From positions 1-64,000 of the forward strand of contig JAGXHG010000017.1 in NCBI GenBank assembly GCA_024636345.1: a stretch of 64,000 nt of DNA, read 5' to 3'. This DNA is from Desulfobulbaceae bacterium. GTDB taxonomy: Bacteria; Desulfobacterota; Desulfobulbia; Desulfobulbales; Desulfocapsaceae. Positions 16,431-16,446 of the stretch are shown piece after piece. The number at the start of each line of letters is the position of its first letter. Positions within the stretch are counted from its first letter, which is position 1. Both the position numbers and the translations under genes were made by a program. The notes beneath the pieces were generated by a model, which worked only from the letters and a program-made list of their open reading frames with translations, had not been told where the DNA came from and searched no databases.

Positions 16431-16446
16431 TGCATGCATCGTGCCA
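16431..16446 (-). promoter_or_regulatory. Sigma54 promoter of peptide cassette 1
   Basis: Minus strand TGGCACG-ATGC-ATGCA; same element upstream of cassette 2. Confidence 0.8.

Follow-up and report, generated by a model that had tools for sequence, protein, structure and literature searches.

Two sigma54-type -24/-12 elements, each placed before a cassette of three predicted membrane-peptide genes, very probably belong to a regulatory circuit that runs from a histidine kinase through an NtrC-type activator and sigma54 to the peptides. They lie in the window (the whole stretch of 64,000 nucleotides that was analysed), which belongs to a 2.96-Mb draft genome, 83% complete, whose nearest named relatives are Desulfocapsa/Desulfocapsaceae MAGs. 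Sequence comparison supports such a dedicated kinase-to-peptide circuit, suggested earlier by a first-pass annotation, and documents the conserved promoters, the candidate enhancers that track the activator, their specificity for the peptide genes, the synteny of the locus and the selection acting on the peptides. The enhancers, the terminators, the FtsH/pseudokinase context and the spread of the family were absent from that annotation. The promoter logic is textbook; the output is not, being a family of small proteins absent from Pfam, NCBIfam, PHROGs and PDB and associated with an extra FtsH and with genes for electron transfer.

Sigma54-type promoter elements precede both peptide cassettes

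Two elements were identified from their sequence and their order-wide conservation:

16431-16446, minus strand: sigma54-type -24/-12 element TGGCACGATGCATGCA, 5' of the FtsH-proximal cassette
18047-18062, minus strand: sigma54-type -24/-12 element TGGCACGCTGCATGCA, 5' of the activator-proximal cassette

Both occur on the minus strand where they had first been reported (16446-16431 and 18062-18047), and the distance of ~70 bp then given to gene A agrees with the 74 bp that separate the end of each element from the gene A ATG (16356 and 17973). In each, ten bases separate the GG at -24 from the GC at -12, the context is TGGCAC/TTGC, and 11 of the 12 scored positions match. The claim of a single mismatch, in the -12 half, holds for TGGCACGATGCATGCA, which is one base off the 17-mer YTGGCACGNNNNTTGCW, but not for TGGCACGCTGCATGCA, which is two off; the second mismatch is an A at the Y position, and one mismatch is correct here only if the Y is disregarded. 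The first T of TTGC is absent from the -12 half of both copies, as it is in most relatives, which counts against the circuit. The kinase and activator genes lie upstream of the elements and on the same strand, and the predicted transcription starts, 12 bases after the -12 C, fall at ~16420 and ~18036, adjoining the earlier predictions of 16419 and 18035.

Matches to the consensus with at most three mismatches number 64 in the window, where 57.6 +/- 8 are expected. As there is no excess, the consensus alone would prove little, and the elements were therefore judged by position and conservation. Moreover, the cassettes are duplicates, so the two sites in the window are not by themselves independent. 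Both points would suit an explanation in which the matches are inherited look-alikes and the cassettes are transcribed constitutively from sigma70-type promoters. Against this stands a survey of 60 loci, the window included, in which a promoter was scored where at least 10 of 12 positions matched, with GG-N10-GC, no more than 300 bp from the first peptide gene of a run; the consensus was taken from established knowledge and not fitted to these loci. A sigma54-type site precedes 56 of the 67 peptide-gene runs that have enough upstream DNA, mostly 70-150 bp from the start codon, and is kept at the right place across families despite diverged flanks. Random 300-mers from the same loci reach at least 10/12 in 2.2% of cases. 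Upstream of the neighbouring gene types the same score was found once in 292 (histidine kinase 0/37, activator 0/52, FtsH 1/51, sensor-like gene 0/37, cytochrome 0/34, NrfD 0/35, FeS 0/23, NapC-like 0/23), and upstream of other ORFs in 7 of 230. Thus the peptide genes are the only regular members of the neighbourhood that this promoter marks. A chance match, which the count for the window would not exclude, is ruled out by this conservation footprint.

When the two cassettes of the window are compared with each other, the sigma54 element and the GCAACA repeats described below are among the best-kept blocks in diverged upstream DNA. The window's genome encodes a single RpoN (424.8 bits, cut-off 277). 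Position and conservation together argue for sigma54 promoters before both cassettes, more strongly than was originally claimed.

The activator and its kinase

Two regulatory genes lie upstream of the cassettes:

18390-20240, minus strand: NtrC-group activator, 616 aa, receiver - PAS - AAA+ with GAFTGA - Fis HTH
20224-21387, minus strand: soluble histidine kinase, 387 aa, PAS - HisKA - HATPase, overlapping the activator gene

The GAFTGA loop attributed to the adjacent activator is indeed found in this response regulator (Sigma54_activat, 1.6e-68), and GAFTGA or GSFTGA is present in all full-length type-1 activators adjoining peptide genes. With its receiver, an AAA+ domain containing an intact GAFTGA and a Fis-type HTH, the regulator of the window belongs to the NtrC group. 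It is not NtrC (nitrogen regulator NR(I)) proper, scoring 407.9 bits against an equivalog cut-off of 558.6, nor does it reach the curated cut-offs for AtoC, ZraR or any other NCBIfam equivalog compared. The synteny of histidine kinase, NtrC-type regulator and peptides is kept in most of the 60 loci.

Candidate upstream enhancer arrays

Enhancer-like motifs of two types, at which binding is predicted from sequence, occur ~80-200 bp upstream of the sigma54 sites. In the window both arrays are of the first type, clustered GCAACA/TGTTGC half-sites:

16569-16646, minus strand: candidate enhancer array, FtsH-proximal, with GCAACA/TGTTGC half-sites at -128, -139, -158, -169 and -200 from the -24 box
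18187-18264, minus strand: candidate enhancer array, activator-proximal, with GCAACA half-sites at -130, -141, -171 and -182 and TGTCGC at -202

Across the 48 upstream regions that accompany a long activator, 203 half-sites, the GCGACA variant included, were observed where 22 are expected, nearly all between -200 and -120. They are often 11 bp apart and in direct orientation. Their spacing and orientation differ between species, which again counts against the circuit. Each array of the window contains two exact GCAACA-N5-GCAACA pairs (16569-16585 and 16599-16615; 18187-18203 and 18228-18244). Pattern searches of the window's own genome found six such pairs, four of them in the two arrays, and the 4.0-Mb genome G041 has three, all at the peptide locus. 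TGTTGC-N11-GCAACA is common to several Desulfocapsa-like loci.

Loci with a short activator of ~446 aa have almost no GCAACA/TGTTGC half-sites and carry instead two TGNCAnnnTGNCA palindromes, at -88 and -67, give or take one base (22 seen, ~0.04 expected). Several peptide loci without a close activator likewise combine TGNCAnnnTGNCA palindromes with almost no GCAACA half-sites, which implies regulation from a distance. Pairs of these palindromes 21 bp apart and at a fixed distance to the sigma54 site were seen in L085-L089, L093-L096, L100 and L101. The recognition helix differs between the two types of activator (DRSTLYRK versus GLRTLYRK). The type of candidate enhancer motif changes together with the type of activator, which speaks against look-alike promoters.

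In sigma54-dependent promoters an IHF bend site between enhancer and promoter is common, although not required. IHF-like sites scoring at least 8 are modestly enriched (31, with 13 expected) and are not clear in the window itself; an element at about -52 as part of the promoter is suggestive only.

Loci in which the regulator differs

At three loci (L080, L091 and L092) a RegB/RegA-like pair replaces the sigma54 activator at the same peptide-FtsH locus, and no sigma54 site was found before their peptide runs. In L092 the matches are to ActS/PrrB/RegB (8.4e-62) and ActR/PrrA/RegA (8e-52), and in L080 the regulator matches at 4.4e-52, all below the curated cut-offs; the assignment of L091 relies on the gene cluster and the recognition helix that it shares. 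RegB/RegA (PrrBA, ActSR) proteins thus resemble the occupants of the regulator position in one lineage (L080, L092), from which they differ in that the latter score 209 against a cut-off of 350 and 176 against 250. L092 has a NosL gene beside its RegB/RegA-like regulators. That the site is lost beside regulators other than sigma54 activators is consistent with the dedicated circuit first proposed and speaks against inherited look-alikes. One effector module would seem to have been naturally rewired between sigma54 and non-sigma54 regulators.

At L045 a Wadjet (Jet) system separates the activator from the peptides, and the sigma54 site is kept, with a score of 10 and two half-sites. At L046 Wadjet stands beside the peptide genes, the activator side falling outside the locus, and the site again scores 10, with seven half-sites. 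L045 and L046 are from two genomes of the same genus, in both of which JetA/C/D of this anti-plasmid system were found.

Probable transcription units

Each cassette is followed by a terminator-like hairpin:

16992-17039, no strand assigned: symmetric terminator-like hairpin of 20 pairs, after the activator-proximal cassette
15376-15417, minus strand: terminator-like hairpin of 18 pairs, after the FtsH-proximal cassette and before ftsH

No sigma70-like match was found preceding either cassette on its strand. Together with the hairpins, this means that each cassette is best read as its own sigma54 unit, and constitutive transcription from sigma70-type promoters is highly improbable. As a terminator separates the peptides from ftsH, co-expression of ftsH with them is at most a candidate. 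A sigma54 promoter of its own for ftsH was rejected, the site being present in 1 of 51 ftsH upstream regions.

The peptide family

All six small ORFs in the cassettes belong to one paralogous family:

17764-17973, minus strand: peptide gene A, activator-proximal cassette, 69 aa, paralog of all the others
17480-17692, minus strand: peptide gene B, activator-proximal cassette, 70 aa
17189-17407, minus strand: peptide gene C, activator-proximal cassette, 72 aa
16147-16356, minus strand: peptide gene A, FtsH-proximal cassette, 69 aa
15861-16073, minus strand: peptide gene B, FtsH-proximal cassette, 70 aa
15569-15787, minus strand: peptide gene C, FtsH-proximal cassette, 72 aa

The A/A', B/B' and C/C' copies are under purifying selection, with dN/dS of 0.10-0.20 (A 0.09/0.46, ~0.20; B 0.08/0.73, ~0.10; C 0.10/0.64, ~0.15). 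In a peptide tree, built on a short alignment with many weak forks, sequences from different species cluster by class, A with A, B with B and C with C; since both cassettes are also common to several species, the duplication is not recent. The conserved core reads K-V-G ... G-x-W-A ... S-G-G-P ... A-[IV]-x-G. Hydropathy and a low-confidence structure model (pLDDT 66, two helices) point to a single membrane helix that breaks off at SGGP and is followed by a second, short one. Searches of Pfam, NCBIfam, PHROGs and PDB returned no match to the peptides above chance level.

Of 243 genomes sampled from the order, 134 carry the family. Sampling at the level of the phylum gave matches in 18 of 395 genomes, divided equally between that order and lineages outside it. 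Loci carry from one to six tandem paralogs. In L043 (8200-9600) extra DNA parts gene C of the second cassette from A and B, and this gene C has lost its direct linkage to the promoter. No matches were found in viral contigs or plasmids, and a phage or plasmid origin was ruled out on this ground.

Small, hydrophobic products of tandem paralogs under inducible control might be produced on demand, as exported signals or as antibacterial peptides. A double-glycine or Sec-type leader is not apparent by eye, and the neighbourhood has no recurring gene for an exporter or for immunity. Purifying selection, the conserved A, B and C classes and the want of matches on plasmids or in viral contigs also argue against export, which is very unlikely.

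Proposed mechanism and related systems

From these comparisons we infer phosphotransfer, looping, the start sites, the sensed signal and the role of the peptides in the following scheme. The two elements would be the -24/-12 boxes of sigma54 promoters serving two transcription units of three membrane peptides each. On receipt of a signal, the neighbouring PAS kinase would phosphorylate the receiver of the NtrC-type regulator, which in its active form would assemble on the GCAACA/TGTTGC array 120-200 bp upstream and loop the DNA, so that its GAFTGA loop and ATPase could open sigma54-RNA polymerase. Transcripts would begin at ~16420 and ~18036, with leaders of ~64 bases, and terminate at the hairpins that follow gene C. 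The products, each of ~70 aa, would then insert into the inner membrane by one helix, followed by the SGGP turn and the short second helix.

The scheme shares with the sigma54 systems of NtrC, ZraR and AtoC the -24/-12 boxes, a GAFTGA AAA+ activator with receiver and Fis HTH, upstream enhancer sites and an adjacent kinase. It differs from them in its targets, which are uncharacterised membrane peptides, and in its enhancer motif, GCAACA/TGTTGC in clustered 11-bp repeats. A ZraSR/ZraP-type envelope stress regulon has been reported in Desulfovibrio vulgaris (DVU3381, PMC4641369); there too, in a sulfate reducer of the deltaproteobacteria, genes for envelope stress are controlled by a two-component system through sigma54. 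The main text of that account of the D. vulgaris sigma54 regulome names neither FtsH, Desulfobulb- taxa nor Desulfotalea, and has no sign of the peptide family; the main texts of two broad sigma54 surveys (PMC12316311, PMC3162934) do not mention FtsH. No description of this peptide/sigma54 system was found in the open-licence papers searched.

Neighbouring genes and the role of the peptides

Downstream of the cassettes lie a protease gene, a sensor-like gene and three redox genes, the last three being usual neighbours of the family:

13325-15229, minus strand: second, divergent FtsH protease, 697.6 bits against a curated 600, with the housekeeping copy on another contig
12432-13337, minus strand: sensor-like membrane protein of 301 aa whose start lies within the end of ftsH, with a HisKA remnant (His to Asn) and no HATPase
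11300-12007, minus strand: cytochrome c7-type protein
9913-11220, minus strand: NrfD
9050-9874, minus strand: FeS protein

The second FtsH is above the FtsH_fam cut-off and has both M41 peptidase and AAA domains, and peptide-FtsH synteny is found in 48 loci. In the sensor-like protein the phospho-accepting His is replaced by an Asn251 that is invariant in 12 sequences; lacking this residue and a HATPase domain, it was rejected as a histidine kinase. It consists of a periplasmic helical sensor part and two membrane helices, and its structure model appears weakly NarQ-like (E 0.03, TM ~0.6 of target). In deeper relatives a full kinase occupies its place (L082).

Small proteins can be accessory subunits of respiratory enzymes, as is CydX of cytochrome bd. 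The peptides might in the same way serve the neighbouring cytochrome/NrfD electron-transfer complexes, making the circuit a respiratory switch and not a stress response. Most loci have either cytochrome c7, NrfD and FeS genes or NapC-like cytochromes as neighbours, and in three genomes (L115, L117 and L119) the same GCAACA/TGTTGC half-sites separate the FeS operon from a divergently oriented gene for a GAF-PAS histidine kinase. The pairing of another lineage with RegB/RegA-like redox regulators and NosL, and the possible NarQ likeness of the pseudokinase, point the same way. Nevertheless, the redox genes change between families while peptides and FtsH persist, one to six tandem paralogs per locus would be odd for a subunit, and no sigma54 site precedes the cytochrome, NrfD or FeS genes; on balance a subunit role is unlikely. 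The GAF-PAS kinase gene of L115, L117 and L119 is possibly a further member of the regulon; it has a sigma54-like site of the AGGCAC-N6-TGCA type ~171 bp upstream, with the half-sites farther up.

MgrB feeds back on PhoQ (PMC8404706), and the peptides, being circuit products and predicted membrane proteins, could similarly be substrates or modulators of the kinase or pseudokinase, and not effectors. A conserved kinase-like sensor without its histidine beside ftsH would fit such feedback. The kinase itself is a soluble PAS protein, which argues against it, and the idea is distinctly improbable.

In the reading preferred here, the peptides and the adjacent second FtsH would constitute a membrane or respiratory-chain stress response, Psp-like in function and built of other parts. 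This FtsH-linked role is possible, if rather tentative, and is suggested by the company that the peptides keep, namely a spare FtsH, sensors and redox genes. The Psp response (PspF, sigma54, PspA/B/C/G) also involves sigma54-driven small membrane proteins. Its activator, PspF, has no receiver, whereas the regulator here is phosphorylatable, carries receiver and PAS domains and scores 260 bits against the PspF cut-off of 443.6; identity with the Psp response was rejected on this basis. Furthermore, no PspA-like protein was recognised among the recurring neighbours, and FtsH and the pseudokinase are found instead.

More broadly, and with a little more assurance though still short of conviction, the locus may represent a membrane/respiration stress system, previously undescribed and spread across the order, in the Desulfocapsa group and its relatives. 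Its main output would be tandem small membrane proteins under a sigma54 two-component circuit, working with a second FtsH dedicated to them and with a pseudosensor derived from a kinase, and this effector module would have been rewired to three regulators (PAS-type NtrC, short NtrC and RegA-like), the promoters changing to match. The promoter and enhancer, the regulator and the expected start offer a handle on the stress sensed by these sulfur-cycling bacteria.

Elsewhere in the window, 22338-24638 encodes a 766-aa Tat-like protein that has no Pfam match at E 1e-5 and contains the metallophosphatase-looking motifs FFAMTDIHITD and GNHDH.
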